IMG/VR virus record: IMGVR_UViG_3300022074_000074
Location: 1 to 49,350 of that record
Direction: 5' to 3' (one strand)
DNA from: a virus
Length of the DNA stretch: 49,350 nt
Part shown: positions 12,726 to 39,783 of the stretch, in pieces
Layout: each line of letters starts with the position of its first letter
How positions within the stretch are numbered: position 1 is the first letter of the stretch
Notes under the pieces: model-generated
What the model saw: the letters and a program-made list of their open reading frames with translations, nothing else
Told to the model about the DNA's origin: nothing
Databases searched by the model: none
Program-made: the position numbers and the translations under genes

Positions 12726-13505
12726 TTATGTACTTGGAGAATCCCACACATTTTCTGGATCAGGCGGCTCGCCAATTTCGACTACAACTGTGTGTGAGTC
12801 TTCTGTACCGGTTTGAAATTTTGTTCTAACTCTTACACCCGCGTCTGTATACCTTCCCGAAGTATCAAAGTCATTAAAGAAAGTATCTACCGATTTGATA
12901 AGACTCTTGGGCCCTGGATTACTTATAAACTTAGTCTTAGCATTAAAGGTTAGTGTGTAAATAATCAAACGACGAGAAGATTCAAAATCTCCTTCATATC
13001 CATCTTCGCTGCTTACATCTGTTAAAGTTACAGGAACATCGGTTATACTTTCTGGACCTTCTAGTTCCTTAACGCTTAAAGTATAATTTGGATTAAAGTG
13101 AGGAATTATTTGTTCCAAAATTTGTAATGCTTCATCCTGTCCTCTTGACATAATATTCAGAGAAAAGATAATATTATAAGGAGCATTCTGATTTACTTTA
13201 ACGCGGTTACCTTCACTATCGGTCTGAACATTTCTATTCATACGATTTAATTTGGTGGCGGTATCGTATGAAAGTCCAGTCATCTCAAAGCTCATACGAG
13301 GAAGCTGTAATGCAACACTATTTTCTATACCAACTTTAATACGGGCAAGAAACTTTTCTTTTGGTGCATAAGAAAGAGGAACGCGTTTAACACCTGTTAT
13401 CTTTCCTCCAACAACTTGTGCTATTTCAATATCGTTGAATAGTTGACCAAATATTGACACCATTTTCTTAACTGTGCCATTATAAAAATACGAGTGACCA
13501 AGCAT
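12726..13505 (-). CDS. 15: tail sheath stabiliser / completion protein gp15, copy A
   Basis: A 259-residue member of the T4 gp15 family (T4 is 272). Family landmarks: N-terminal Y-F-Y-N-G-T-V-K-K-M-V-S-I-F-G-x-L-F-N-D-I, the R-V-P-L-S-Y-A-P-K-E-K-F segment, the I-M-S-R-G-Q-D-E-A-L-Q-I-L-E-Q-I-I-P-H-F-N-P region, and a D-T-F-F-N-D-F motif near the C-terminus. gp15 caps the finished tail and joins it to the gp13/gp14 neck. The start is set at the ATG one base past the stop of copy B, because M-L-G-H-S-Y-F-Y-N aligns with M-L-S-N-P-Y-F-Y-N of that copy; an ATG eight codons upstream would overlap it. About two thirds of residues are identical with copy B, so the pair is a tandem duplication. It has an extra C-terminal tail of about 20 residues ending near D-P-E-N-V-W-D-S-P. 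Confidence 0.9.
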   Translation of the reverse strand: MLGHSYFYNGTVKKMVSIFGQLFNDIEIAQVVGGKITGVKRVPLSYAPKEKFLARIKVGIENSVALQLPRMSFEMTGLSYDTATKLNRMNRNVQTDSEGNRVKVNQNAPYNIIFSLNIMSRGQDEALQILEQIIPHFNPNYTLSVKELEGPESITDVPVTLTDVSSEDGYEGDFESSRRLIIYTLTFNAKTKFISNPGPKSLIKSVDTFFNDFDTSGRYTDAGVRVRTKFQTGTEDSHTVVVEIGEPPDPENVWDSPST

Positions 13506-13506
13506 G

Positions 13507-14226
13507 TTATGAATCAGGTTTAGTTCCAATTACGGTAGTTGTTTCGGTAACTCTTACGCCAGCGTCTACATACGCGCCATTGGTGTCGAAGTCGTGAAAG
13601 AAAGTATCGACAGTTTCTATAAGGCCAACAGTTGAAGGAAAAAACGAAAATTTTGTCTTAAGATTAAATGATAAAGTGTATATAAGCAGTCTTCTAGAAG
13701 ACTCAAAGTCTCCTTCGTATCCATCTTCAAAGTTAACACCTTCAAGAGTGATAGGTATATCAGTTTTACTTTCAGGTCCTTCAAGACCTTTAACAGTAAC
13801 GGTGTAATTTGGATTAAAGTGAGGAATTATTTGTTCAAGTATTTGCAGCGCTTCATCTTGTCCTCTTGACATTATATTTAAATCAAAAGATAATGTATAA
13901 GGAGCATTTTGCCAAACTTTAACTTTATTTCCTTCATCGTTCGTTTGAACTGTTCTATTTAAACGATTTAGCTTAACCTCAGCGTCGTATGAAAGTCCTG
14001 TCATTTCAAAGCTCATGCGAGGCAGCTTTAAACCAATATCGTTTTCCACATCAGCTTCAATGCGAGCAAGGTACTTTTCTTTTGGTGCATAAGCAAGAGA
14101 AACGCGTTGAACCCCAACCATTTTCCCTGCGGAGATATTGGCTATCTCAATGTCATTAAAGAGAGTACCAAAAACCGCCACAGTCTTTTTAAGCGTTTCA
14201 TTATAAAAATATGGATTACTTAGCAT
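13507..14226 (-). CDS. 15: tail sheath stabiliser / completion protein gp15, copy B
   Basis: A 239-residue member of the gp15 family, upstream of copy A in the transcript and sharing the same landmarks (Y-F-Y-N-E-T-L-K-K-T-V-A-V-F-G-T-L-F-N-D-I, A-Y-A-P-K-E-K-Y, the identical I-M-S-R-G-Q-D-E-A-L-Q block and D-T-F-F-H-D-F). Even the DNA of the central block is nearly the same in both copies. T4 has only one gp15. The pair could form a mixed hexamer, or one copy could have taken a new role at a second ring. The two genes are almost touching, so translation is probably coupled. Which copy keeps the T4 role cannot be told from sequence. Confidence 0.9.
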   Translation of the reverse strand: MLSNPYFYNETLKKTVAVFGTLFNDIEIANISAGKMVGVQRVSLAYAPKEKYLARIEADVENDIGLKLPRMSFEMTGLSYDAEVKLNRLNRTVQTNDEGNKVKVWQNAPYTLSFDLNIMSRGQDEALQILEQIIPHFNPNYTVTVKGLEGPESKTDIPITLEGVNFEDGYEGDFESSRRLLIYTLSFNLKTKFSFFPSTVGLIETVDTFFHDFDTNGAYVDAGVRVTETTTVIGTKPDS

Positions 14227-16165: not shown

Positions 16166-16486
16166 TCATTTCCGAATAAATCGCGAAGGATTCTTTGCGA
16201 TCCTTTTAGCCAAAGTAACAATGCCTTCAATTACTTCTGGTGATATAACACCAACAATTCCATAAATCACAGCTTTATACAAACTATCAATTGATGTTTG
16301 CTCTAGTATGTACCACGCAATTCCACTTGATATAGCAGCGGCTGGAATCCGTTTACAAAGAAGCTGAGCGGTAATACTTTCCTTTGAAGAAAGAATCCTT
16401 GCGATCATACCTGCTGCGCCAATGAGTGGAACTAACCAGCCTCCATCTAAAAAGGCTTGAACTAAAGATTTTTGGGGCTCTTGCAT
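16166..16486 (-). CDS. holin-like membrane protein (LydA / holin superfamily III type)
   Basis: A 106-residue protein with three predicted membrane segments: about 15-31 (G-G-W-L-V-P-L-I-G-A-A-G-M), about 46-62 and about 68-86 (A-V-I-Y-G-I-V-G-V-I). It has a short polar N-terminus and a basic C-terminus (K-R-I-A-K-N-P-S-R-F). The size, topology and Gly-rich first helix resemble LydA-type holins, which make the lesion that releases the endolysin. No endolysin is in this window. The ATG at 16486 is chosen over a TTG six codons upstream; neither has a good Shine-Dalgarno. A perfect late octamer is 19 bases before this ATG. The holin call rests on topology and is moderate. Confidence 0.6.
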   Translation of the reverse strand: MQEPQKSLVQAFLDGGWLVPLIGAAGMIARILSSKESITAQLLCKRIPAAAISSGIAWYILEQTSIDSLYKAVIYGIVGVISPEVIEGIVTLAKRIAKNPSRFIRK

Positions 16487-16505: not shown

Positions 16506-16513
16506 TATTTATA
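16506..16513 (-). promoter_or_regulatory. late promoter TATAAATA before the holin-like gene
   Basis: A perfect T4 late octamer on the minus strand, 19 bases before the ATG at 16486, in the gap between the accessory cassette and the two small membrane genes. Confidence 0.7.
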
Positions 16514-16536: not shown

Positions 16537-17307
16537 TTAAATATAGTTTTTTAGCAAATTATTTGCCTTTGTATAAACCCTTGGACACTTTACATTATCT
16601 TTACCCATGATTGTTTCTAAAATTGCAGATGCGGCAATAATTACAGAAAGTCTGTCAACAAGTACTATTTCATATTCATGAATTGCAGATTCATAAATCT
16701 TTTTTGAATATTCTGCAGATTGCCCTGTCACATAACATGCCCCCAATATATTTACTATTGCTGCAGGCCACAATTTAATATCGGCAAAAGAATGTATCTT
16801 ATTAAAAATTTTAAAAGCAGCTTCAGCGTCTCCTTCTTTTATATAACAATGAGCTAGTGCAGTCCAAATAGAAGTGATCCAACGATAAGTAAATTTACCC
16901 CAATAAGGATCATTAAATTCTTTGAAACTTTGCAGGTCTTTATAAAGACTTTCCAACTCATCGATAGATCCCATGTCATCGTAAATGTAACGATAAGCAA
17001 GAGTGCAAAAAGACTGACTTACAACTTCAAATTTATCGGGATAGATTCGAGCTAAAAGAAGAGCTCTACATCTTTGGTACCCGGCCGAATCGTCGTTTCT
17101 ACCTTTAAAGTTTCTTACAAACTTTTTAGGGTTATAACGAAGGTCGTCTAACATTTGGTTAAATTCATCAAGATCCAATCCCGGAATAATTAAATCGCTG
17201 TCTGGAAGAGATGAATATTCGAATGAAAGCTGAGTGCCCGAATAGATTATAAAAACCTTATTTTCTTTCCAAGAAATATTAGGGACTTTCGTTTCCGTCT
17301 TTGTCAT
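16537..17307 (-). CDS. helical-repeat (TPR-like) hypothetical protein
   Basis: A 256-residue protein with no recognised family. After an N-terminal strand-rich section it is mainly helix. Helix pairs around A-H-C-Y-I-K-E-G-D-A-E-A-A-F-K-I-F-N-K and N-I-L-G-A-C-Y-V-T-G-Q-S-A-E-Y-S-K-K look like tetratricopeptide repeats (the G-x-x-x-x-A spacing). The start is placed at an ATG (M-T-K-T-E-T-K) inside the end of the sulfotransferase gene, a 29-base overlap; the frame stays open further upstream into that gene. It is the last gene of the glycosyltransferase-sulfotransferase cassette. A role as a partner of those enzymes is only inferred from position. Confidence 0.6.
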   Translation of the reverse strand: MTKTETKVPNISWKENKVFIIYSGTQLSFEYSSLPDSDLIIPGLDLDEFNQMLDDLRYNPKKFVRNFKGRNDDSAGYQRCRALLLARIYPDKFEVVSQSFCTLAYRYIYDDMGSIDELESLYKDLQSFKEFNDPYWGKFTYRWITSIWTALAHCYIKEGDAEAAFKIFNKIHSFADIKLWPAAIVNILGACYVTGQSAEYSKKIYESAIHEYEIVLVDRLSVIIAASAILETIMGKDNVKCPRVYTKANNLLKNYI

Positions 17308-18274
17308 TGGGTTTCTTTGAAAGTTCTTTAACTTTATCTTCAAGCTGGTCAATACGCCCCATAGCTTCAATAGAGAAGATGATTGCCTGATCTAACAAAC
17401 GATTGTAATCATCACTTGTTAGTGTTCTTTCTTGCGGAGTAGCAGGATCTTTAAACAATCGACCGTCTGGATTGCTCAATAATACCTTCATTTTTTGTTT
17501 TATATTGGGTAGCTTAAAAAACTTTTTAGCATATTCATTAATACCACCATTCCTAAAATAGTTTCTATAAAGGTCAAACTTCTTCGGCGAAACAGGTTCT
17601 GTATAAGTGTTATTATAGATCGCTCTAGATAAAACTTCAGCAGACGTTAAAGTTTCATAAGCCCTAACGCGAGGAAGGTCAATACCAACAGCTTCGCTAA
17701 AATCGTCAATAACGTCTTCACCTTCTTGATAAATTCTAATTTTAGCAATATCTTTCCAATTTAAATAACTTCTATAAACACCCCGCCCCCAACATTGAAA
17801 CCAACGATCAAAGGCAGGTAAAATATGTCCATTCCATTTACCAACCCTTGGTCCGCGGAGAGGTTTACCAGGAAGAACTTTATGAACAAGGCCCCATTGG
17901 TCCCATGCAGATTTTAACCATTTGCCTGGTTCTCTTATGTAAATTATAATATTAACTTCAAGATCATCATCCCATTCAACAAGTTCTTTAAACAATTCCA
18001 ACATATGATCATTACTTGATATGGCTTCATTAGACCAAATAACGTGATCACATCCAGTCTTTTTTGAGTGAGCAATAATAGTATCATACAGCGCTTTGGT
18101 CTTATCAACTGTGTGGTGAATACTAAGCCACTTGTGATCAATTTTATCGCCGTTTACAAGATCTGGCCAAGCCCAGTTATCTGGCGTATTTAAAGCGCCC
18201 TTGTACTGGTGAAGACTTTTTTGAATTGCTGATGTTCCTGTTTTACCTAAACCAATATGTGCTGTAAACTTCAT
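17279..18274 (-). CDS. PAPS-dependent sulfotransferase-like protein
   Basis: A 331-residue protein with the two hallmarks of cytosolic/Golgi-type sulfotransferases. The 5'-phosphosulfate loop is at the N-terminus (H-I-G-L-G-K-T-G-T-S-A-I-Q, residues 6-18), and the 3'-phosphate motif is I-Y-I-R-E-P-G-K-W-L-K-S-A-W with Arg114 and Ser122. Such enzymes move sulfate from PAPS to a hydroxyl or amine of a sugar, lipid or protein. The C-terminal ~40 residues (I-D-Q-L-E-D-K-V-K-E-L-S-K) form a short coiled coil. Its ATG overlaps the stop of the glycosyltransferase by four bases, so the pair is translationally coupled and probably acts in one pathway, for instance building a sulfated glycan. The acceptor is unknown. 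Confidence 0.85.
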   Translation of the reverse strand: MKFTAHIGLGKTGTSAIQKSLHQYKGALNTPDNWAWPDLVNGDKIDHKWLSIHHTVDKTKALYDTIIAHSKKTGCDHVIWSNEAISSNDHMLELFKELVEWDDDLEVNIIIYIREPGKWLKSAWDQWGLVHKVLPGKPLRGPRVGKWNGHILPAFDRWFQCWGRGVYRSYLNWKDIAKIRIYQEGEDVIDDFSEAVGIDLPRVRAYETLTSAEVLSRAIYNNTYTEPVSPKKFDLYRNYFRNGGINEYAKKFFKLPNIKQKMKVLLSNPDGRLFKDPATPQERTLTSDDYNRLLDQAIIFSIEAMGRIDQLEDKVKELSKKPNDKDGNESP

Positions 18275-19407
18275 CCAATTAACCTTTCTACCTTTTTCTC
18301 CCAGACACTCTTAGAAAACTTTTCATTTACTATTTTTCTAGCAGCGTGGATTTCTGCTCTACTTTGTCCCGTAAAGTGTAGAAACAGAAGCTTGGCGTAT
18401 TCTTTGGCTTCATCTTTTATTTCGAAGTCAATTAAATAGTTTGAAGGAACAAGCTCATTCACCGCCCCAACATTGCTAACGGCCATTGGAACTGACCATT
18501 GCATTGCTTCAAAATATGTAAGAGGTATGCCCTCGTCAACCGAAGGACAAACAAGCGCACTAGCTTGTTTATAATACTCTTGCATTTGATTATAATCAAT
18601 ACCTTTTTCAAATTCTATCCAATGACTAGCTTTTAGTTCTGCCGCGCGTTTTTTAATGGCTGTATAAAGTTCTCCGTCGCCAACAAACTTAAAAACAGGC
18701 ATATAAGCAGCTGGTAAAAGTTTTGCTAATTCTGCGGCAATATCACAAACAAACTCGGGGCGTTTTTGAAAGTGAAAGCGAAAAGGACATAATACGTACC
18801 TGGGATCTTTATCTGTTTTCCTTAAAGGCCAAGTCTTTTCTATTTCAGAAAAACCAAACCAATACAGGGTTTTAATTATTTTTTTATCTACGCCTTTTTC
18901 ACCAAGCTCTCCCTTAAGCTTATCCGAAACAGTTAGTACCAAATCAAAAGGGGTTCCTTTTTGAAGGCTTTTTTCAAAGTCCCAAGGTTCCTTGAGAATC
19001 ATATGAAACAAAGAAATCAACTTTGTATTCGGCGCAGCTTCTTTGATTGACCAAGCTTGATCGTAAGCTTCGTGTGAATTGTTTACAACCGTATAAATAG
19101 GCTGTAAATTCTTGACTATCTCTACAGTATCATTATTACAAAAAACATCATCCGCTAAGTCTATAAATGCAGACTCTCTCCGGCTATCTTTATGCGGCAT
19201 GGTCCGCGTTGATATAACAACAATTCTGAATCCCCTACTTTTGTAATGCGCCATTAAATCCAAGCCGCATCTATCCGCTCCTCCGAGCGACATCCAAGGG
19301 ATGATAAGACAAAATACAGGCTTTTTCTCAACGGTATCTTCCGCTGACTTTAGAATAGCGCTACAGGAGTTTTGCAAACGTTTATTCTTTCGTGATCTCC
19401 TGGGCAT
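18271..19407 (-). CDS. glycosyltransferase family 4 (GT-B fold)
   Basis: A 378-residue retaining GT-B glycosyltransferase. The N-terminal Rossmann domain starts F-C-L-I-I-P-W-M-S-L-G-G-A-D-R (residues 32-46), a typical GT4 acceptor-side loop. The C-terminal domain carries P-V-F-K-F-V-G-D-G-E near 237-246 and the E-x7-E motif with Glu292 and Glu300 (D-E-G-I-P-L-T-Y-F-E-A-M), followed by V-G-A-V-N-E-L-V. It would transfer a sugar from a nucleotide-sugar donor. The basic N-terminal ~20 residues are an extension. It lies between the collagen-like fibre gene and a sulfotransferase, so modification of a virion fibre or of the host surface are the two main hypotheses. Donor and acceptor cannot be read from sequence. 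Confidence 0.92.
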   Translation of the reverse strand: MPRRSRKNKRLQNSCSAILKSAEDTVEKKPVFCLIIPWMSLGGADRCGLDLMAHYKSRGFRIVVISTRTMPHKDSRRESAFIDLADDVFCNNDTVEIVKNLQPIYTVVNNSHEAYDQAWSIKEAAPNTKLISLFHMILKEPWDFEKSLQKGTPFDLVLTVSDKLKGELGEKGVDKKIIKTLYWFGFSEIEKTWPLRKTDKDPRYVLCPFRFHFQKRPEFVCDIAAELAKLLPAAYMPVFKFVGDGELYTAIKKRAAELKASHWIEFEKGIDYNQMQEYYKQASALVCPSVDEGIPLTYFEAMQWSVPMAVSNVGAVNELVPSNYLIDFEIKDEAKEYAKLLFLHFTGQSRAEIHAARKIVNEKFSKSVWEKKVERLIG

Positions 19408-19423
19408 GTATTATATATTCCTC

Positions 19424-20629
19424 TTAGAAATCTGGAGCATCGAAGTAAAGTCGAACGCGAATAAAGTCAGTTACGGAACTACGGCCTCCGTATCCGCTTT
19501 CTTCACCATTAGTGTGCCCATTATCGGTACATTTTAAAACAATACCATCTCCAGAACTAACAGAAACGCTTACATTGGAAGAAGAACCGGTATAGTACTG
19601 AGGATTGGGATCAGCACTTCCACTGGGGTCATCAAAAGCTTGGGGAACCGGGGAACTAAATCCTGTTACAGTACCAAGTTCTGTTGGGCTTCCAGCATTA
19701 TATCCTGCAAGAACTTTAAATTCGGGTGTACCTTGAAGCGTATCCCACTCAGGAATGTCGATCTCAGCTCTGCGAAATGTCATGGCCATGTTGGAAGTCA
19801 TTACAAACGCGTGATCATCAATCTCTAATGTGGCTGCATCACCACCGCTGTTAGTAAAATCCTCAATAGTAATGTCATGAGTGTAAACATAAGGGCGAAC
19901 ACTAAGGCCGCCCGCTGGGCCTGTGGCTCCTGATGGTCCTGCTATACCTGTAGCACCAACAGGTCCTCTAATTCCAGAAGGACCGGTGGGACCAGTGGTC
20001 CCCGCGGCTCCGGCGGATCCTGCAGCTCCGTTTGATCCAGCGGGGCCGGTAGGACCGGTAGGGCCGGTAGGACCTGCAACCCCTGCCAATGCGCCAAGGT
20101 CAGACCAACCTTCGGGAGATGAGTCAGGTCCATTATAAACATAAAGATGCGCGGTCCCACTTGCAAATTCTGAAGGTGAATCAGTTGCGCTTCCTGGTCC
20201 AAGTTTAACGATAAAGCAAGTACCTTCCCTTTGAAGAACCGGATCAAGCGCCGGATCAGAAACAGAGGTAGGAAGATCATCGGCATAATCAACCACACCA
20301 GAAATTTCAAGACCTTCTCCCTGATCACCTTTAATATTACCAATAACTTCTGTGGTAGAATCAGAACGAGTAATGGTTAATGTTCCATCTGTGTCAACAC
20401 TAATGTCATCAATAACACCAGTGTCATTAAAGAATTGTGTAACTTCTGTAGCAACAGCTGTATCAATGTTTAGATTTAACGTAACCAATCCTGAGTTTTC
20501 GTCAAGATAAAAAAGTTTTCTGTCAGGAGCATTGATTGCAATTTCTCCTGGCCGGAGAGAATCTGTATCAGGTATCTCGCCAGGACTAAATGAATGCTTT
20601 AAAATAATTCGTGTTGGTATAGTAGCCAT
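19424..20629 (-). CDS. collagen-like tail fibre protein
   Basis: A 401-residue fibre. The N-terminus ([14 protein letters not shown] then L-R-P-G-E-I-A-I-N near 24-33, D-R-K-L-F-Y) is the attachment motif seen in many marine T4-like fibre and baseplate proteins. Residues about 183-241 are a run of Gly-X-Y triplets rich in G-P-T, G-P-A and G-A-A, which predicts a collagen triple helix; therefore the protein is a trimer. The C-terminal ~155 residues form a globular, beta-rich, Ser/Gly-rich tip likely to contact the host. It follows the collar/RCC1-like fibre gene and precedes the glycosyltransferase. A TATATATT box lies six bases before the ATG. Fibre identity is strong; the precise virion position is inferred. 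Confidence 0.85.
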
Positions 20630-20647: not shown

Positions 20648-23600
20648 TTATGTAGACACAATTTGTCCGTCAATCTGGTGCCAAGTATGAGTAATGGCAC
20701 TGCTTTCATTTCCGAAATAATGTTTGGATAATCCAGCACCATAAACCCTTCCTGGCTTTGCAGAAAATTCTTCTGCAGTTTCACCAGACTCTGGTGTTTT
20801 ACAAAGAGCAAAGGTAGCCGGTCCAGATGTACCTTGAATACCTTGAATTGATACGATATTTGAAGGATCTTCAGGAAATGGTACTCTTATATAATTGTCT
20901 ATAGCTACGGCAACTCCAGTGTTATCCACTCCGTGAGGAGTTCCAAATCGTTCTTTAAGGTTTTTCCCAGCCGCAAACAAAGCATAATTTCCTGCGGTTG
21001 TTTTTGATTCTGCTACAATAAAAACCGTGGATAAGTTGGTAGAATTAACTCCAGCTTGCGCAAATACTTTACTTACAGACCAGCTGGAGCTAAGAGTTTC
21101 TGATGAAATAAATCCTCCGGTATTACCAGTAATAACTCCAGTGTCGGTTAATCCGGTTGAGCTATCACCCGCTACTTTTAATGTGCGGGCTGCTGTAGAA
21201 GTATTTTCGGTAACAACAAATGAAACGTTGCTATTACTAATTGCAATAATATCAACCGGTTTATCGGTCGTATTTAATTGTATTGATATTGGAAATACTT
21301 TCTGATCACCTGATGCAGTTAATTGTCTTTGTCGATTTGATCCAAATCCCAATACATTAATCTTATCACTAGCTAAAGAACTTTCGGCCAGAGCATCCAA
21401 TTGGTTGGTATCAGAAGTTGTATCAGTTGTTCTGCGAACTAATACATAGTCATGCGCTGATTCGATACTTGATGTTCCAATAGATATATCAAATACTCCT
21501 TTAAGCTTTGGATAATGCCTTATAACCGCTTCGGTAATAGCGTCGTCTGCATACTTATTAGAATTAGCTGCAGCAATACCAGATGAATTCGGGTCTTTCT
21601 CTATAATAGCGTCAAAAGCGTCACTTGCACTTTCGAATAGTCTGAATCGGTTGCTTAAATTTCTGTTTTGGGTATCTCCGCGAACAATGTAATAAAATTT
21701 ATTACGAACTTCCAATCTTTCAAAATCTTCATATCCGTGATCGGTTGATTTTTTAAATACGCCTGACGATTGCTGAGTAATAGATCCTCCGGCAACTGAT
21801 GTACTTCCAAATACAACCGGAACATGTCGTGTAATAGCTCCTGACGTATCTCCATTACCCGATTGTCCTGTTGCACTAGAACCGGCAAACCATAATTCAT
21901 TATCGCTTTCATTTCCAGGTTTACCAACAATAAGCCAAGAACCTCGCTCACTCACAGCGGACTTTTTAACGTAATAAGAAAATTGATTAAACGTTTCAGA
22001 TCCGCTAAAACCAAGGTTGGTTTTCCATTGTGCAAGAGCTGCTGAATCATCTACACCTAAGCCGCCCGCAAGAGTAGCATTGCGCTTGTAGTAATGAAAC
22101 CGCTTGTTGATCTTATCTTTAAAAGTAGTATCAGCCGCAAGCGCTGCGCTTATTCCGCTTTCGCGTTCTGTATCAGTTGCTCCGAATGTAGCCCAAAGAC
22201 TTGCACCGGCACCTTGAATGCCAAACACACGGGGACCTGATGTCGTATATGATGTTCTTGCGTTAGTGGCAGGAACAATATTTTCAGAACTTCCCATTTC
22301 AAAAGTAGACTCTTGAAGGCCCTGTAGAATAATCTTGTCATTATAGTCAAAGGGAAACTTTTCACCTTCTTCACCATCATCATCAGTCTCTTCCTGCGCA
22401 AAATAGACAAGCTTTGCAATTGCAGGAAGGTCGCGTTCGACGCTGCTCTTCGCGGTAGGGACCCTTACTATCGGAGTAAAAGAAGAAGCCCTTGACGTCA
22501 AGGTCATCGCAAAATAGTCAAAGACCCCGTCATTATCTCTCCTAAATCCAATTTGAGGTCGAATTGAGCCACCAGTCCGTACATTAGTAATACTAATCGG
22601 AGCAACAGCAAATATGTAAAACTTATAAGCATTACCTGGCTCTGGCCCGCCGGAATCGTCCTCATCAAGAAAAGCGTAATATTGAACAGTATTAGTGTTA
22701 TTCTGAATGTTAAAGTTATTCGGGCCCTGATTCATTTGCGCCGCGGTAAAAACTTGACGCACTTCTTGGCCTCCTACAAGTATTTTTCTTCGACCTCCTG
22801 GGATTAAAATCCCTTCACTTAGAACCGAAGTGGCGGCTCCTAGTGTTATAGCAGTTCCTCGATTATGTCCATTGGAAGTGGTAGTTACTATTTCCCCGCT
22901 AAAATTGGTTCCCAACCCTATTGATCCATAAGTATTATCACTGGAACCAATTAACCATCCTCGAGTATAAGGAACACTTGAGTCTGTTTCGTATTTTTCT
23001 AAACCTTGAGTGCGGCTTCCGCTTTCGTATTCATTACCAATACCATCTTTGGTTTTAACCACGATTGTTGGATTATCAGCAGAATTTGAATATGCAACAG
23101 TATCTACAGTAACTGCGTTTGCAGACCACTCGCTCTTTTGTGGAAGAAGCGCAGGAACCGGAAGTTCAACAAAGTCATCATTATAGGGCTGTTGTCCACT
23201 TTGATGATATTGAGTATAAAAGGTTTCAAAATCTCCGGTGGTTCCCCGATCTTTTTGACCAATTTGGCCTTCGGCGTTTCTACCGGTCCCGTAAATAATA
23301 TCATCATTATCTATAAAAAAGAAATTGTTAGCAGTACAAATTGTACGTTTAAAAATTGCATCTTGATCAGTGACTGGAGAAAAAGTATTAAATCCACGAT
23401 TTGCAACCATGGTACCTTCACTTATTCGCTCCCCGTGTCGCTCAAAACGATTAATTCCTGTTGCTAATCCTCGGCCTCCTCTGCCAACTAAGCTCAATGA
23501 AAGTTCTTTATCCGCAAAAGATTGATGACCGTCCATAAGTTCGGGAAAAGAAATTGTACTGCCTCTTTCACCAACTACTTTATCAACAAAAGCCTTTGTA

Positions 23601-24856
23601 GCGGCATGGTCGTCAGCGGTTGGTTCACCAACTGCAAGAGCTCCGGTGGAATCTCTTTTAGCAATCGTGTTTGCGGTTGCAGTTGTATCAATATCTGCGG
23701 TAAGACTAAGTTCACCTCCTGAACCAAAAGTAAAATCTGCGGTGTCGATGTTTAAGCCAATTTTACCTCCTGTAATGTCGAAAGAAGAAACTGCAGCACC
23801 GGCACTGTTGTAAAGTTGTACACCGTCAGCACCACTTGCACCAGTAACAGAACTAACAGCAAATGCTGTGGCATCATCACTTTTATATTTAATAAGGTAA
23901 ACAATTGCATTACCGCCAATAGGATCTTCATCACTAGGAGAACCAATTGTATCCGGAAGAGTAGTGCTGCCACTTACAGAAGGACTGTTAAGACCTTCAA
24001 GAAGTTCAACAATTTCTTTATAAGTAATATCAGCAGGGCTTGCATTTTCATCATATGAAATAGTTTGCCCGTCGCATGGCAACCATCCTGGAGCACCATC
24101 CCATTTGGTAAATTCGGCTGGACTACCTTCTGTTGCCCAGGAATCAAGAATCCTTGCGTCCACCGCAATCATCGTTCCAACTGGAATAAGATTAACAGGT
24201 AAAGTAAAGTTTTCTGCTTGTAAAAGTGATCGAACCGAAGTAGCAATATTACCTTCAAGCGTGCTTTGAGCAAACCATTCGACATCTGGTGAACCTCCTC
24301 CACTCCATCTTAAAAGAGAAGCGGTGGTTCCAGGAGAAGTTCCAGGCAAATTCCAATCATAGTTATTAACGGTAAGGACTGGAGATGTACCTGCAAGTGC
24401 TAGTTTATTTCCAGTAGCAATTTCAAAAATTCCTGTCTCGCTTCCCGCGTAATTAAACTGAAGTTTTTCTGGGGTGCCCGCATTTTCAAATTTAAGAGAA
24501 GCAGCATTAGATGAAGCAGAAGATTTAAAACCAATACCTTTGGCACCAATTAATTGAATACCATCGCCGGTTGTAGAACTACCAGAGCTGATATTTAAAG
24601 TTGACGTGCTGATTGTTCCTGTGGTACCACCGAACGAATAATCACCCGTAATTAAAACACTGCCACTAAAATTTGTAGACTGGCTAAAAGTTTTTATACC
24701 AGTAACTGTTTGATTAGAGGCAAGGGTCATTATACCCTCTGTATTTGTAACGAAGTCGGTGGCATTAAGGCCGTCGATTATAGCATTACATTTATCCGCC
24801 CACTCTTTAAACGTGTCGGTATTGTCAATTCGTGTTAAAGTAAAGTCGTAGGCCAT
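20648..24856 (-). CDS. large tail fibre with collar domain and RCC1-like repeats
   Basis: A 1402-residue fibre. The N-terminal ~210 residues start with a segment of the form F-T-L-T-R-I-D-N-T-D-T-F-K-E-W-A-D-K-C-N then beta-rich repeats typical of fibre shafts. Residues about 223-325 are a phage tail-collar domain (P-V-G-T-M-I-A-V-D, G-W-L-P-C-D-G-Q-T-I, then T-T-L-P-D-x-I-G), as in T4 gp12. The C-terminal ~900 residues have scattered units of the RCC1 type: a hydrophobic strand, G-x-G-x-N, and G-Q-x-G-x-G (for example Y-G-T-G-R-N-A-E-G-Q-I-G at 522-533, also W-L-I-G-S-S-D-N-T-Y-G-S-I-G, F-A-G-S-S-A-T-G-Q-S-G-N-G, L-G-F-G-S-N-R-Q-R-Q-L). A beta-propeller receptor-binding tip is predicted. It lies downstream of the giant DUF4815-like gene. 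Confidence 0.85.
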   Translation of the reverse strand: MAYDFTLTRIDNTDTFKEWADKCNAIIDGLNATDFVTNTEGIMTLASNQTVTGIKTFSQSTNFSGSVLITGDYSFGGTTGTISTSTLNISSGSSTTGDGIQLIGAKGIGFKSSASSNAASLKFENAGTPEKLQFNYAGSETGIFEIATGNKLALAGTSPVLTVNNYDWNLPGTSPGTTASLLRWSGGGSPDVEWFAQSTLEGNIATSVRSLLQAENFTLPVNLIPVGTMIAVDARILDSWATEGSPAEFTKWDGAPGWLPCDGQTISYDENASPADITYKEIVELLEGLNSPSVSGSTTLPDTIGSPSDEDPIGGNAIVYLIKYKSDDATAFAVSSVTGASGADGVQLYNSAGAAVSSFDITGGKIGLNIDTADFTFGSGGELSLTADIDTTATANTIAKRDSTGALAVGEPTADDHAATKAFVDKVVGERGSTISFPELMDGHQSFADKELSLSLVGRGGRGLATGINRFERHGERISEGTMVANRGFNTFSPVTDQDAIFKRTICTANNFFFIDNDDIIYGTGRNAEGQIGQKDRGTTGDFETFYTQYHQSGQQPYNDDFVELPVPALLPQKSEWSANAVTVDTVAYSNSADNPTIVVKTKDGIGNEYESGSRTQGLEKYETDSSVPYTRGWLIGSSDNTYGSIGLGTNFSGEIVTTTSNGHNRGTAITLGAATSVLSEGILIPGGRRKILVGGQEVRQVFTAAQMNQGPNNFNIQNNTNTVQYYAFLDEDDSGGPEPGNAYKFYIFAVAPISITNVRTGGSIRPQIGFRRDNDGVFDYFAMTLTSRASSFTPIVRVPTAKSSVERDLPAIAKLVYFAQEETDDDGEEGEKFPFDYNDKIILQGLQESTFEMGSSENIVPATNARTSYTTSGPRVFGIQGAGASLWATFGATDTERESGISAALAADTTFKDKINKRFHYYKRNATLAGGLGVDDSAALAQWKTNLGFSGSETFNQFSYYVKKSAVSERGSWLIVGKPGNESDNELWFAGSSATGQSGNGDTSGAITRHVPVVFGSTSVAGGSITQQSSGVFKKSTDHGYEDFERLEVRNKFYYIVRGDTQNRNLSNRFRLFESASDAFDAIIEKDPNSSGIAAANSNKYADDAITEAVIRHYPKLKGVFDISIGTSSIESAHDYVLVRRTTDTTSDTNQLDALAESSLASDKINVLGFGSNRQRQLTASGDQKVFPISIQLNTTDKPVDIIAISNSNVSFVVTENTSTAARTLKVAGDSSTGLTDTGVITGNTGGFISSETLSSSWSVSKVFAQAGVNSTNLSTVFIVAESKTTAGNYALFAAGKNLKERFGTPHGVDNTGVAVAIDNYIRVPFPEDPSNIVSIQGIQGTSGPATFALCKTPESGETAEEFSAKPGRVYGAGLSKHYFGNESSAITHTWHQIDGQIVST

Positions 24857-24878: not shown

Positions 24879-25088
24879 CTATTTATCACTGTACATCACA
24901 GCTTCTAATTTAATAATTCTTTCTTTTAAATCGCAAACTTCTTGTTTAAGTTCTTTAATTTCTCTATTACGTTTCTTTCTAGCAAGTGCTGATTTATAAC
25001 CTTCTTTATCTGTATTGGTAATAATTCCGGTATTTAAATTTTTTACCAAATGGGGGTTATCGGCAATTTGTCTTTTTGATTCATTCAT
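24879..25088 (-). CDS. small basic coiled-coil virion-linked protein
   Basis: A 69-residue protein. The first half has the pattern N-P-H-L-V-K-N-L-N-T-G-I-I-T-N-T-D-K-E-G-Y seen in small structural-region proteins of T4-like marine phages. The second half is a basic segment (A-R-K-K-R-N-R) followed by a heptad helix with Leu/Val/Ile every seven residues, a bZIP-like layout that predicts a dimeric or trimeric coiled coil. The start is the ATG two bases before the end of the upstream gene, whose stop it effectively touches; a TTG five codons upstream is the alternative. Its position between the giant structural gene and the fibre suggests a fibre chaperone or small adaptor. No function is known. 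Confidence 0.7.
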   Translation of the reverse strand: MNESKRQIADNPHLVKNLNTGIITNTDKEGYKSALARKKRNREIKELKQEVCDLKERIIKLEAVMYSDK

Positions 25089-25089
25089 A

Positions 25090-28000
25090 TTAAACGGTTG
25101 CAACCGCTCTCAAATCTTTTGCGAATGGAGCATCTCCGTAATTTTTTCCACGCAATTCAATTTTAATTATAAACGAACTAAATTCAGTTGTGCCGGTATT
25201 AAGGTTAAATCTTACTTCATTAAAAATTGTTCTATCAACATTAATTGGAATTGACGTAGGATCTAGCGGAGAAACCGTATGCCAATCTGTATCTGTCTCG
25301 GTACTTGAGATAATTTGACCGTTTGTATCTTTAAGCTGAACATATACTTCTACATCAGATGTAGAAGAAGGTCGATTTACATCAAGGTAAATATCGATTT
25401 GATCGCTTAAATTATCAAGGGTAATTTCACGAGTAACATATTGAGAAGTATCTCCTGTTTCGGATATAAAATAGTTTCGTGTTTCAAGGGAAAGATCCCT
25501 GTTAATAACTGGAGTTAACCTTTCATCATTAGAGCTAAAGAATGTTTCAATGCGCGTATCTTTAAAATTATCTGCTTGAATTTCGTAATTTTCATTACTA
25601 ATATATTCAATTGGAAGTCCTGCTGTAACATCGTATTTAACACCAGAAAAGTAAATTTCGTTTCGAATAGATGTTTTACCGCCAAGATTAATTGCTTTTT
25701 GATTTAAAGCAAAAGCTCCGACTTTATATTTGTTAAGAGTTCCTTTTATTGTTTCGTCTGTTTTACTACTGCTGTCGCTAATAGTTATTGTCGGCGCTTC
25801 AAGATAGCCAAACCCTTTCTTTGTGATATCAATGCGGGAAATTGAATCATCTGCGGGGTTAAATACCGGAACAGCTGTTGCAGTAACTCCACCAGGGAAC
25901 GCAACTTTAGTTGAGTTACCATCTGAATCAATTACGGTTGTGAATGGCGCTTCAACAGTAACAGTACAAGTAAGTGCATCCCAACCTGTATTATTAGAAA
26001 TTATAGATGCATCAATTTCGCCAAGATGTGTTCCAACTTGTGGACAAGCGACAAGCGAAGCAGTTTCGCCGGTTGCAAACGATCCGCGTTTTAAGCTAAA
26101 TTTTAAATCCCTGTTTTGTATTGCGGTCCAAGTTGTTTTATTAGAACTTGCAAAAAACGATCCAAGTGCAGGCTGTGAAGTAATAATTTGACCTGTGATA
26201 AGATCCGTTTTATCACCTCCAAGTTCTGCGATAAAAGCAGTGTACTCTGAGCTTGCTGAGAAACAAACAATTGCGTATTCGGTGTCAGCAGACAGATAAA
26301 CTGGATAAGGGTATTTAAATGTGGTTGCAAGAGATCCATCCGCACTTGTTCCGACATCTTCCCAGTTAACGGTTGACTCACTACCTGAAACAATATCTCC
26401 AGTTGGATAACCATTAACCGTTGTTACGATGTAAGATTTAATAGGAACCTTTGTGCTCTCGCTTGGTTTCCCTGCAAAGAAAAGATCAATTGACGTGGCA
26501 AAAATACCTGTTTCATCCGTAACCCTAAAAGTCTGAGCAATTGGATCCCACCGTCGTGTACGTCTTTCAGTTCTTGTAGTTGTAGTAATTCGAGGAAGTG
26601 TGGCGCTAATGCTTATAGTCTGCTTGTTTGTTTGAAGACCATTAGAGATGTATCTTGCCAAAGCGTTGCTTGTAGATTCATCTTCCAAATTACGTGGTGA
26701 ATTTGTAATAGTAATAGTCTTTTCTCCAGAAGAGAATTTAAGGCTATCGTTATTAGGAATAATAAGCACACCTTCTACAATGCCATCTGTATCAGAAATA
26801 ACATCAGAAGTAACAAACGTCTCAAGAAGTGTTGCTTCATCAGCCCCATCATATTGTGTCAAGCTGGATTGATCAAAGCCTGGAAGTAAATCATTAATTA
26901 GTCTTTCTTTTTCAGCAGCGCTTGCGGGCCCCGCCTCAACTGTTTCAATAATTTTAGTAACATAACTCCAAAACTGTTTCCCTGCCCCAGCAATACGATT
27001 TGCAGGGTCGGTTACAAATGCACGATCAGAAGCCTTTAAGTTATACCAACGCGTTCCAAACCAAGTAGGAACCGAAAGATTGTTTGTAAGAAACTTAGTC
27101 ACTTGTGTTTCGATGTCATTTGTAAGAATTGCTGTTTCTGTGTGATCATGACTGTTTACAATATCATCACGTGTTAAAAGGTGTGCATATTCTGTAACAT
27201 CAATACCATCGATGAAGAAAAAGAACTTGGAATTTGGTTTAAGACCTTCTGCTCGGAAGTAAACTGCCTTTGAGCGTGCGTATGGACGAATCTTAACATC
27301 TGTTACAAATTCACCAAGGGATTGTTCAATTCGCTCCTGAACAATCTCTGTCTCCGTGACTGTTCTTTCTTCCACCCGCATCGTATTCCTCCTCCGGGCC
27401 CCAATGGTTCTCCATCCTCCACCAAACTGAGTATTTGTTCTTTGCTGAGTAAGACCAACACGCTCGTTAAGGTCGCGGATTGAATCAAATAAACCTGTTC
27501 CACCAAAAATATCGAAATCAATTTCTGGAGCGGTAATTGTATCATTCCATGTATCAACCTCCGGAGCAAGAATCATAGAACCAAGTGTTGCAACATATTC
27601 ATAGGGTTGAACACTTACAAATTGTGTAGCAAAAGGTTGATTGGTATACACAACCTCGTTATACGGAAGTGTTAATGCTTCATTGCTAAGGCCGCTATTA
27701 GTAAATTGAGAATCAGCATTGATATCAATCCCATTTGTTTGAGTTAATTCAAAGGGAATGCTATAAGCAGAAAATGCAGGATAAAGATGCCCTCGTTCTC
27801 TTTCATAGTGACAAATAAATTCGCTATTTAGCACATCACCAATTGTAAAGTTTCTAAATCCTTCTGCAACAAGACCATTTTTAAACCTTGCTGTTCCATC
27901 ATCATCAAAGATACTTTTATCATCCGCGCTTTTTTCAAGAAGTGAAAGAGCTGTATAATATTCAAGGTTTGACACTCGCGTATCAATTCTTCCAATATCG

Positions 28001-30468
28001 CTCATTGTATAACGCTGATGACGGAATGATTCAACATCAATATTGGTAGCTTTAAATGTATAAGCAGGAATATTTAAATTATGAAGTACTAAACCGTTTG
28101 ATGAAGCATTTGCCGCAACAGGTAAAAGACTTGGTATTCCCTTTTCAATAGAGAATTCGCCATTAGACAAAATTACTATTGAATCAACCCGCGGTAAAAA
28201 GTAATCAATATCGCCGATAATTGGACTATAAGGATCCAGTGAAAGAACATCTGTTGTAGATGGATAAGGACGAATGTCAAAGAAGTCTCCCAAACGATTT
28301 CCATTGTAAAGAGGAATATCATCAAGATCAGATTGACCACCACCAGAATTTCTATAACTATTTACCGTATAAAAATTACCTCCACTAAATTTCCAATGCA
28401 CAACATTTACATTTGTTTCACCAGCTTTAAGGCACCGCACCTTAGCAGTTTCGTATTGCGTCGATGTTTGGCCGTCGGTAACAAGTTCAAAGTTTTCGTC
28501 GGGAACACTAATCAAATGAAAGACACCAGGCAATTCAACAATATCGCCAAGAGCTGGAGTCCCAGCCAAAGTTATTGTTTCGGTAGTTTCTGTTTTAATG
28601 CCAAGAGAGTCAAGATTTTTGGCAACAGTAGCAATAATACTAATAGTATCACCTGAATCCGCAGCAGAAGGTGAATCTCCTGAAAAATCTAAAGTTAAAG
28701 TTCCCGCAGAAGTATTAGAAACAATAGTAAAATCGGTTGATTCCAGTACTTCGTCTTTGGTTGCGTTGTAAACAATAACTGAAGAAGGACTTTTATCAAA
28801 TGTTGAGCCAGTAACGCTAAAAGTTACAGTCTTATCGGAAGCGACGGTGATGGTTTCTGTATCAGGATCTTGCGGGAAGTTAACCTTTTCAGATACTTGA
28901 ATTGAGTTAAATGTTTTAACCGCGGTGTTTGGTAATTCAAAAAGAGTAGAATTGATATTTGTATCGTGCAGCTTTATTCCATTTCTTTCTTGAACTTCAA
29001 AATTAACATCACCTAAATTGGTAATCGCAGCACCTTTAATTGTAGCTACATTGTCAAAAATCTTTCCTGCATTGAGAGAAATTTCACGAAGAAACAAACG
29101 AAATCTATTACCGCTTATAAATTCAACAGAAAGAATCTTACAAGTACCAATCGTCGCGGATGTGGAATCAACTAGATTATATGTTAAAGTATTACTGTCA
29201 AGAAAAGGAAGACCACCACCGGTATGCGGTGAGCCAAGATTTCTAAAATTACCTTCAACATAGTTACCCATACTTGCAACCGTTGAACCATCTTCCAAAA
29301 CACCGTTTTGTAAATCAGCAGCAGATACCCGTGCTTTATCTCCTAAAAGAGTAAGTGGGCCGGCAAGCTCAATTCTTTTTCCACGTACGTATGCAACAGA
29401 AGGAGAAAGCGTTGCTGCGTATTTTTTATTTGCTTCTGTCTGGGAAAGATCATTGGCTGCTGTGCTATTTTTATAACGGCCGGTGTAAGAATCTTCGCTT
29501 AAAACTTCTTGAATTTCAACATTAAATTTATCAACAACATAACTTCCACTTTCTTCAAAGGTTCTTTCTGCAAGAACTTTTTCTAAAGTTGTATCGCTGT
29601 TGTCAATGGGATTTTCAATAACAATAACTTCGTTATCTTTAATCTCTAAAAGAGCTACAAGATTTTCTTTTTCACTAAAATTTTCAACAAGATCAAGTTT
29701 AAGATTTATTTGATAGCGGTCTGCGCCTGGAGCCGCAAAGTTCGGAAATCCATTTGCGTTATCAAATAAAGTTGAATCTTCGCCCGAAGTAATTTGCTTT
29801 TCATCAATTTGCAATACCGCGAAACCGTCAAAAAGCTCGTCTTCACTTAAAGCTCTACACGTATATTGTTCTGCAGTTGATGCCAAGCATCCTTTAACAA
29901 AGAAAACACCCGTTGTAAGATTCGCGCTAATTGCTTTTCCATTATTGATAACCAATCCCTCAACAATATTTTGCTGTGTAAGGCCTTGAATAGAAACATT
30001 ACCACCAACAATTTCATTTGCACTTCCAACACCCGTACTGGAATTACCAGCTCGACGATATTGAATAAAAAGACGGTATGAAAGAGAATTTAATTCTTCA
30101 ATCTTGACTAGACTTGCTGAAACAGCAGATTCCGTAGAAGTTATTGAAATACCTGTTAAATCCACAGTCAAGTTTTCAAAAGCAGTAGCATCTTCTGAAC
30201 CATTGAATTGAACGTCAATAAATCTTAATGTATTATCAAAAGTACAATCACCGCCAACAATACCGGTATTCGGCTTAAATAAACTTTGACCTAAACGATC
30301 AAGCTGGGCTTGAAGAATTGACTGGGCCTGATTTAATTCTCTGGCCTGAACAGTTCTTCCTGGCTGAAATAAAACCCTTAAATAATTTTTATCGTCCGGC
30401 GTTAAACCGGAAGTATCCGGTGTATTAATGTCGTCGAAATATTTTGATGTGTAAGCGGTGATTGCCAT
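25090..30468 (-). CDS. giant DUF4815-like baseplate/fibre-attachment structural protein
   Basis: A 1792-residue protein. The N-terminus (N-Y-L-R-V-L-F-Q-P-G-R-T-V-Q-A-R-E-L-N-Q-A-Q-S-I-L-Q, residues 28-53) is the signature of the DUF4815 family of phage structural proteins. Near residues 1320-1340 the run R-R-W-D-P-I-A-Q-T-F-R-V matches the D-P-L/I-A-Q-(S/T)-F hallmark of the large baseplate-linked proteins of cyanophages. The rest is beta-rich, with a fibronectin-like composition, and has no catalytic motif. It probably occupies the role of T4 gp9/gp10/gp11 or of a proximal fibre, which are absent here. It starts within the TAATG overlap with gp8, so the two are translationally coupled. The family name is from memory of the motif; the role is inferred from position. 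Confidence 0.8.
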   Translation of the reverse strand: MAITAYTSKYFDDINTPDTSGLTPDDKNYLRVLFQPGRTVQARELNQAQSILQAQLDRLGQSLFKPNTGIVGGDCTFDNTLRFIDVQFNGSEDATAFENLTVDLTGISITSTESAVSASLVKIEELNSLSYRLFIQYRRAGNSSTGVGSANEIVGGNVSIQGLTQQNIVEGLVINNGKAISANLTTGVFFVKGCLASTAEQYTCRALSEDELFDGFAVLQIDEKQITSGEDSTLFDNANGFPNFAAPGADRYQINLKLDLVENFSEKENLVALLEIKDNEVIVIENPIDNSDTTLEKVLAERTFEESGSYVVDKFNVEIQEVLSEDSYTGRYKNSTAANDLSQTEANKKYAATLSPSVAYVRGKRIELAGPLTLLGDKARVSAADLQNGVLEDGSTVASMGNYVEGNFRNLGSPHTGGGLPFLDSNTLTYNLVDSTSATIGTCKILSVEFISGNRFRLFLREISLNAGKIFDNVATIKGAAITNLGDVNFEVQERNGIKLHDTNINSTLFELPNTAVKTFNSIQVSEKVNFPQDPDTETITVASDKTVTFSVTGSTFDKSPSSVIVYNATKDEVLESTDFTIVSNTSAGTLTLDFSGDSPSAADSGDTISIIATVAKNLDSLGIKTETTETITLAGTPALGDIVELPGVFHLISVPDENFELVTDGQTSTQYETAKVRCLKAGETNVNVVHWKFSGGNFYTVNSYRNSGGGQSDLDDIPLYNGNRLGDFFDIRPYPSTTDVLSLDPYSPIIGDIDYFLPRVDSIVILSNGEFSIEKGIPSLLPVAANASSNGLVLHNLNIPAYTFKATNIDVESFRHQRYTMSDIGRIDTRVSNLEYYTALSLLEKSADDKSIFDDDGTARFKNGLVAEGFRNFTIGDVLNSEFICHYERERGHLYPAFSAYSIPFELTQTNGIDINADSQFTNSGLSNEALTLPYNEVVYTNQPFATQFVSVQPYEYVATLGSMILAPEVDTWNDTITAPEIDFDIFGGTGLFDSIRDLNERVGLTQQRTNTQFGGGWRTIGARRRNTMRVEERTVTETEIVQERIEQSLGEFVTDVKIRPYARSKAVYFRAEGLKPNSKFFFFIDGIDVTEYAHLLTRDDIVNSHDHTETAILTNDIETQVTKFLTNNLSVPTWFGTRWYNLKASDRAFVTDPANRIAGAGKQFWSYVTKIIETVEAGPASAAEKERLINDLLPGFDQSSLTQYDGADEATLLETFVTSDVISDTDGIVEGVLIIPNNDSLKFSSGEKTITITNSPRNLEDESTSNALARYISNGLQTNKQTISISATLPRITTTTRTERRTRRWDPIAQTFRVTDETGIFATSIDLFFAGKPSESTKVPIKSYIVTTVNGYPTGDIVSGSESTVNWEDVGTSADGSLATTFKYPYPVYLSADTEYAIVCFSASSEYTAFIAELGGDKTDLITGQIITSQPALGSFFASSNKTTWTAIQNRDLKFSLKRGSFATGETASLVACPQVGTHLGEIDASIISNNTGWDALTCTVTVEAPFTTVIDSDGNSTKVAFPGGVTATAVPVFNPADDSISRIDITKKGFGYLEAPTITISDSSSKTDETIKGTLNKYKVGAFALNQKAINLGGKTSIRNEIYFSGVKYDVTAGLPIEYISNENYEIQADNFKDTRIETFFSSNDERLTPVINRDLSLETRNYFISETGDTSQYVTREITLDNLSDQIDIYLDVNRPSSTSDVEVYVQLKDTNGQIISSTETDTDWHTVSPLDPTSIPINVDRTIFNEVRFNLNTGTTEFSSFIIKIELRGKNYGDAPFAKDLRAVATV

Positions 30469-38913: not shown

Positions 38914-39783
38914 TTAAGCCTGAGGCGGTTGGCCAGTGCCGGTTCCGCTTGAGCCGCCGGAGATTGGGTGATTGTGAGTACTAAGTGGAATTTCGTTACC
39001 AGTAATTTCGCCGTCAGCTGTTATGGTACTTTCGGTATTAATCTCAGGTTTAATCGAAACCGGGCCGGATTCAATCTTAAAATTCGCGGAATCAAAAACG
39101 GTGTCAGCGTCGCTTTTAACAGCAAGAAGTCCACCACTGTGAATATCAACTCCTTCACTTTCTCCACCACCAAGAATTAATTTGTTGTCTCCAGCCAACA
39201 TCGTATTGGTTCCACTGGTAATATTCGTTCCAGCTTCTGCGTGTTGAGTTGAAATACTTCCAACTTGTGTATTAAAATTTTGGCCAATAGTTAAATCATT
39301 ATCGCCGACAATGTTGGTGTCAAGTTTGGATTGAAATCGCTCATGCCCTTCACCCCCAACAGTTAAATTATAATTTGCACCGCTATTTACAGAAAAGTCA
39401 TTGGAAGCTTCCATAATAATGTTGCTACCTGCTTTAAAGTTAATACTCTGCCTTGCTTGAAAATACATTGTTTGAGCCTCGGCAAACAGGTGTGCTCCAA
39501 CATTAAGATTACAGTCACCGGTAACAGTTATATTACAATTCCCGCTAACTACAATACTTTCGTTTCCTACAATCGCAGTAAAGTTTTCGCCGTTAACAAC
39601 TAGTGTTCTTCCGCCAGTAGCATCCCATTCTTCAAATGTTCCTTTTGCGTGCGAGCGCTTTATTCTTTCATTTCCAACAGTGTCATCAGTTTCAAATTGA
39701 TGACCAGAGACAGTTTTTTCAACCTTATTAAAAGAGCTGACACCTCCGGTATTTGGTTCGGGCGGGGTTATAGATGAACTCAT
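38914..39783 (-). CDS. baseplate spike needle (gp5 C-terminal-like beta-helix, HxH tip)
   Basis: A 289-residue protein equivalent to the beta-helix part of T4 gp5 encoded as its own gene. After a polar N-terminus, residues about 60-160 contain V-x-G-x5 repeats (I-V-V-S-G-N-C-N-I-T-V-T-G-D-C-N-L-N-V-G and others), the octapeptide pattern of the T4 gp5 needle and VgrG. The C-terminal ~20 residues contain S-T-H-N-H-P with His270 and His272, an H-x-H of the type that binds iron at the tip of P2-like and other phage spikes, followed by a Gly-rich end. The trimeric needle would pierce the outer membrane. It lies directly downstream of the gp5 N-terminal gene. A TATAGATA box is six bases before the ATG. 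Confidence 0.85.
   Translation of the reverse strand: MSSSITPPEPNTGGVSSFNKVEKTVSGHQFETDDTVGNERIKRSHAKGTFEEWDATGGRTLVVNGENFTAIVGNESIVVSGNCNITVTGDCNLNVGAHLFAEAQTMYFQARQSINFKAGSNIIMEASNDFSVNSGANYNLTVGGEGHERFQSKLDTNIVGDNDLTIGQNFNTQVGSISTQHAEAGTNITSGTNTMLAGDNKLILGGGESEGVDIHSGGLLAVKSDADTVFDSANFKIESGPVSIKPEINTESTITADGEITGNEIPLSTHNHPISGGSSGTGTGQPPQA

Follow-up and report, generated by a model that had tools for sequence, protein, structure and literature searches.

The DNA analysed here (the window) is a stretch of 49,350 bases from a virus record and covers the structural region of a T4-like, Kyanoviridae-like marine myovirus. The closest matches to its major capsid protein come from two Kyanoviridae, Pelagibacter phage HTVC008M (58%) and Methylophilales phage Melnitz (56%); these identities are too low for the host of the window phage to be named from them. 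The genes of interest lie on the minus strand, in the order VrlC-like baseplate protein, large fibre-like protein, collagen-like fibre, GT4 glycosyltransferase, sulfotransferase-like protein (ST_A), TPR-like protein, holin-like protein, a 71-aa ORF, gp13, gp14 and two gp15 genes (Table 1). The ORFs for the glycosyltransferase, the sulfotransferase and the TPR-like protein were found with overlapping ends (4 nt for GT4/ST_A, 29 nt for ST_A/TPR) where a preliminary description of this DNA had placed them, i.e. between the collagen-like fibre and the neck genes, with the holin-like gene, the 71-aa ORF and gp13 following downstream. The start of the TPR gene is likely the ATG at 17307; a TTG at 17370 was rejected, as the relatives start near the former in alignments. 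Elsewhere in the window, the two adjacent tail sheath stabilizer genes (gp15-like, phrog_227; 12726-13529 and 13507-14226, minus strand) are ~71% identical, a tandem duplication also present in relatives, with three copies in L059. Two further ORFs (38914-39783 and 39803-41527, minus strand) match different parts of phrog_430 (baseplate hub/tail lysozyme), as though the gene for the hub had been broken in two.

Table 1. Features of the locus, in the order of the minus strand.
Feature	Position	Strand	Remarks	Matches
VrlC-like baseplate protein	25090-30468	-		
ATAAATA late-promoter-like motif	24880-24886	-	Ahead of the large fibre gene	
Large fibre-like protein	20648-24856	-	In relatives, too, the first gene of the inferred late unit; candidate acceptor	Pfam search: no family
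Collagen-like fibre	19424-20629	-	Thr-rich, with 20 G-X-Y triplets; immediately precedes GT4; candidate acceptor	Pfam Collagen, E = 1.6e-8; phrog_819 tail protein
GT4 glycosyltransferase	18271-19407	-	378 aa; constant member of the cassette	
ST_A, sulfotransferase-like	17279-18274	-	331 aa; swappable module	
TPR/PPR-like helical protein	16537-17307	-	256 aa; N-terminal beta strands; optional module	
ATAAATA late-promoter-like motif	16506-16512	-	Ahead of the holin-like gene; the next unit probably starts here	
Holin-like protein	16166-16486	-	Constant downstream border of the variable site; kept in the clade	Weak holin matches

The GT4 product carries both the Glycos_transf_1 domain (Pfam PF00534, E = 4.8e-16, above the family cut-off) and the E-x7-E motif (E292/E300), invariant in 6 relatives. 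It is apparently an intact, ordinary member of its family, and the identity first given to it stands. Its nearest named relatives act in LPS/EPS synthesis, and its matches in INPHARED reach 26-27% only. The gene was found in all clade relatives covering the site, with one GT4 per record among the records searched; no sugar epimerase was found in these records, and the two observations together fit the addition of a single, host-supplied sugar.

Against Pfam Sulfotransfer_4, ST_A scores 12.4 bits (E = 0.14), below the cut-off of 22.8, and it has no NCBIfam match; the curated models may simply not cover its branch. Because of these scores, a diverse alignment was built from 14 phage and cellular homologues, down to 18% identity, with the cellular ones taken from genome contigs. 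PAPS binding is defined in this family by two features, a Lys in the 5'-phosphosulfate loop and an R-x7-S pattern in the 3'-phosphate motif. Nine residues are invariant in all 14 homologues (H6, G8, K11, G13, Q18, S81, E83, R114 and S122), among which K11 lies in the 5'-phosphosulfate loop and R114 and S122 form the R-x7-S of the 3'-phosphate motif. It is these residues that sustain the PAPS-type identity proposed earlier, for which Pfam alone is weak. A Foldseek search with a weak model (pLDDT 63.5) placed sulfotransferases at the top (E = 3.7e-3, TM ~0.34), together with P-loop toxin and kinase chains at similar weak scores. Compared with solved structures, the phage-only alignment found nothing, and the alignment including cellular relatives gave only weak matches to heparan-sulfate sulfotransferases (E = 0.02). 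These toxin and kinase chains, like the Pfam scores under cut-off, would agree with ST_A being another P-loop enzyme, e.g. a kinase. We consider this highly improbable, since the PAPS-binding residues hold over such divergent homologues, a homologue from SAR11 scores above the cut-off of Sulfotransfer_1 (E = 5.1e-6), and recognised Sulfotransfer_2 and Sulfotransfer_3 genes use the same slot in sister phages. The cellular homologues adjoin GT2/GT4, other sulfotransferases, RgpF, LicD, epimerases and methyltransferases, the one in a Rhodobacteraceae MAG (L177) directly following an RgpF/GT4 protein, and this position among polysaccharide genes favours a sugar as the sulfate acceptor. Synthesis of PAPS by the phage itself was dropped as a candidate, no APS kinase being found in 10 fragmentary records.

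The third protein is only loosely TPR/PPR. Its PPR/TPR matches are weak and below the Pfam cut-offs, with one repeat over the NCBIfam PPR cut-off (21.7 bits vs 20), and its model, of modest confidence, has three strands followed by an alpha solenoid. The gene is absent in two of the relatives, L039 and L040.

Relatives of the locus were collected from IMG/VR scans and a gene-order catalogue. Their borders are constant: the fibre, the collagen-like fibre and GT4 flank the site at one end, and the holin, the 71-aa ORF and gp13 at the opposite end. The interval from GT4 to the holin is made up of sulfotransferase genes of three families, a polysaccharide pyruvyltransferase gene and the TPR gene, in eight orders: ST_A-TPR (the window and others), ST_A-ST_B-TPR, ST_C-ST_A-ST_B, ST_C-pyruvyltransferase, ST_C-pyruvyltransferase-TPR, TPR-pyruvyltransferase, ST_A-short TPR-pyruvyltransferase-TPR and ST_A-short TPR-pyruvyltransferase. 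ST_C (Sulfotransfer_2) and the pyruvyltransferase (PS_pyruv_trans) are well over their Pfam cut-offs, and ST_B is at or just under that of Sulfotransfer_3; the predicted common outcome of these swappable enzymes is an acidic substituent. Among the named phages of INPHARED, ST_A, ST_B, the TPR protein and the pyruvyltransferase had no match, and ST_C had one (27.5%); these absences carry little weight, as near records may be missing from the set searched. The pyruvyltransferase had no match in 197 SAR11-order genomes either, in a search run without a positive control.

Nucleotide identities show that modules are exchanged at this fixed site. L036 and L040 share 100% identity in gp13 and 95% in the holin gene, yet have different cassettes, while L035 and L036 are 99% identical in ST_A and TPR and only 81%, 80% and 61% identical in gp13, GT4 and the collagen gene, respectively. 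Similarly, L040 and L043 share 95% identity in ST_C and 83% in gp13, and the ST_A gene of L056 is a mosaic, its first 200 nt being 95-99% identical to L040 and the remainder 51-74%. The comparison with marine phage relatives, suggested in the preliminary description as a check, thus shows the sulfotransferase to be one of several interchangeable modules, and this is the strongest feature of the locus. Sugar cassettes recur at the site beyond the clade. In the more distant T4-like contig L099 (2873-6516), the gap between fibre and neck contains a pair of Sulfotransfer_2 genes together with a GT2-like gene and a UDP-galactopyranose mutase, and in L088 (5775-7612) a UDP-galactopyranose mutase and a Core-2/I-branching-type (GT14-type) glycosyltransferase lie between a 1510-aa collagen-bearing fibre ORF and a holin homologue. 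The contents can also be of other kinds: in HTVC008M (L077, 16403-19682), four 2OG-Fe(II) oxygenases and a gene annotated as ferrochelatase lie just before gp13, with a tryptophan halogenase nearby, and other contigs have radical SAM, Coq4 and FkbM-type genes at the same site.

The three genes GT4, ST_A and TPR are under purifying selection as judged from median dN/dS, which is 0.13, 0.20 and 0.23, respectively, compared with 0.24 for the pyruvyltransferase and 0.06-0.08 for gp13, gp14 and the holin; for ST_B and ST_C, with one to three close pairs each, the values (0.4-0.5) carry little meaning. Together with the gene order conserved in relatives, these ratios rule out chance ORFs for the three genes. 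As to their expression, ATAAATA is the core of the T4-type late promoter. The motif is not enriched across the window as a whole; its position is conserved in relatives, where it lies upstream of the fibre at a distance of 22-23 nt, of the holin at 15-21 nt (in L056 and L061 it falls within the longer reading frame used for the latter) and of gp13 at 5 nt. Across relatives it never precedes the collagen, GT4, sulfotransferase, pyruvyltransferase or TPR genes. Because it stands before the fibre and the holin and never before the cassette genes, the cassette is probably part of the late unit of the fibre, and we infer that a single unit runs from the fibre to the TPR gene. This supports the late co-expression with fibres that had been read from the position of the genes. 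The motif also occurs ~5 nt before several minus-strand starts (e.g. 1096, 6393, 15919, 32453 and 45058), where a ribosome site is expected and unusually close for a promoter.

The enzyme classes, the constant GT4 with its swappable modifiers, the shared late unit, the selection and the recombination all support, at the level of sequence, the reading of the locus as a late-expressed, modular glycan-modifying cassette, which is very probably correct. The earlier suggestion that these genes could make a sulfated sugar is supported along with the identities of the enzymes. The activities themselves, the sharing of one sugar by GT4 and the modifiers, and a virion acceptor are inferred, and would combine as follows. 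In the cytoplasm, GT4 would draw on a host nucleotide sugar to attach a single sugar to an acceptor available in the late phase of infection. The likeliest acceptor is a Thr/Ser-bearing part of one of the neighbouring fibre proteins, collagen-like or large. Sulfate from host PAPS would then be transferred to that sugar by the sulfotransferase, and in sister phages other sulfotransferases or the pyruvyltransferase would replace or join ST_A. The common outcome would be a negatively charged sugar, with details varying between close relatives. The TPR protein, which is dispensable, may recruit the acceptor.

The nature of the acceptor is the part on which the evidence divides. GT4 lies next to the collagen-like fibre in 16/16 collagen-fibre relatives extending far enough, a count drawn from one clade with a query built from GT4 carriers. 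In wider relatives either occurs alone, and a general pairing of collagen and glycosyltransferase was rejected: there are related phages whose collagen-like fibres have no recognised glycosyltransferase beside them, and in L099 the glycosyltransferase and sulfotransferases adjoin a fibre without collagen repeats. Thr occupies 47% of the Y positions of the collagen repeats here and 40% elsewhere; Thr richness was not retained as proof of the acceptor, T4-like collagens without GT4 being nearly as Thr-rich. Very long collagen-like stretches, of up to 179 uninterrupted triplets, were seen in fibre ORFs upstream of gp13 in L101 (2-6736). Leaning towards the virion are the late expression shared with fibres, the constant presence of GT4 next to the collagen fibre and the lack of an epimerase; leaning towards the host are the habit of pyruvyltransferases to act on polysaccharides, the LPS/EPS resemblance of GT4 and the exchange of modules independently of fibre sequence. 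On balance, the fibre appears somewhat favoured over the host envelope, and the full version of our reading, a late modular glycan-tailoring cassette with a virion target, is put at slightly under an even chance. Of the virion target preferred in the preliminary description, the late co-expression with fibres held up and the choice over the envelope is made doubtful by the collagens without a glycosyltransferase and by L099; nothing points to the sheath, which had been named as another target.

The cassette could instead act, late in infection, on the polysaccharide of the host surface, either LPS O-chain or capsule, and alter it so that the receptor becomes unrecognisable and progeny are not trapped on debris, or rival phages are excluded, with the modules diversifying in step with variation of the host receptor. 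This is how the glycosyltransferases of this island have been read in PMC7029224, and it agrees with the polysaccharide loci harbouring cellular ST_A homologues, with the role of pyruvyltransferases in LPS/EPS synthesis, and with the two points on GT4 and module exchange given above. The inferred transcription, shared with the fibres and coming immediately before the holin, falls late for the exclusion of superinfection, and is compatible with receptor hiding at lysis. We regard a host target as a substantial possibility, somewhat short of probable. It is also conceivable that the enzymes are exchangeable cargo of a hypervariable island, acting on a lipid, a metabolite or another host protein, and that their position reflects a recombination hotspot with no tie to the fibre. 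The unrelated genes held by other T4-like phages at the site, such as the oxygenases of HTVC008M and the radical SAM, Coq4 and FkbM-type genes, are in line with this. In this clade, however, sulfotransferases, pyruvyltransferase and TPR are the only recognised cargo besides GT4; they invariably follow the same GT4, and the cargo is under purifying selection, which makes this explanation unlikely.

The glycan-tailoring cassette has counterparts in several described systems. The island between VrlC and gp14 is called the 'host recognition cluster' (HRC) of pelagimyophages, whose glycosyltransferases are interpreted as O-chain modifiers against coinfection (PMC7029224). The locus in the window likewise varies in content, contains fibres and lies between VrlC and gp14; it has the same position (VrlC-like gene to gp13/gp14) and the same combination of fibres with a glycosyltransferase. 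It differs in its size (~9 kb vs a reported mean of 44.6 kb) and in having a GT4 rather than a GT8, and a swappable sulfotransferase/pyruvyltransferase set did not come up in a word search of that paper (PMC7029224). The role of phage sulfotransferases is described as unclear in PMC10580990. For glycans on virions, precedent is given by the capsids of mycobacteriophages Che8 and Rita, where phage-encoded glycosyltransferases are likewise implicated in the decoration of virion proteins; there, the target is the capsid, the hosts are unrelated and sulfation is not mentioned in the text available, while a glycan on the virion is a prediction for the cassette in the window (PMC11256854, citing Freeman 2023). 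In bacteria, a cytoplasmic O-glycosyltransferase of the FlmG type owes its specificity to an N-terminal flagellin-binding domain (PMC7591256). By analogy, O-glycosylation of a filament protein in the cytoplasm with a separate substrate-recognition part would correspond to the role guessed for the TPR protein, although in FlmG the binding domain and the transferase form one protein, and the TPR protein is separate and optional (PMC7591256). Bacterial polysaccharide loci (L175, L177 and L178) resemble the cassette in carrying full-length or N-terminal ST_A homologues (~26% identity) beside glycosyltransferases, and differ in being cellular and part of larger pathways.

A constant GT4 with interchangeable sulfotransferase/pyruvyltransferase modules was not found described in a limited literature search. 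Glycosyltransferases in the host recognition cluster are known, and the new element appears to be the set of swappable sulfation/pyruvylation genes that accompanies a constant GT4. We know of no demonstrated sulfated phage virion, and suggest, tentatively, that these phages may decorate their own fibres with an acidic sugar, sulfated or pyruvylated, and that modifier modules are swapped between close relatives, which would give the virion a swappable charge pattern. A compact cassette whose modules are swapped between phages with identical neck genes is a small, tractable system for phage-encoded glycan charge, from which its possible roles in adsorption, as a decoy or in receptor hiding may be learned.
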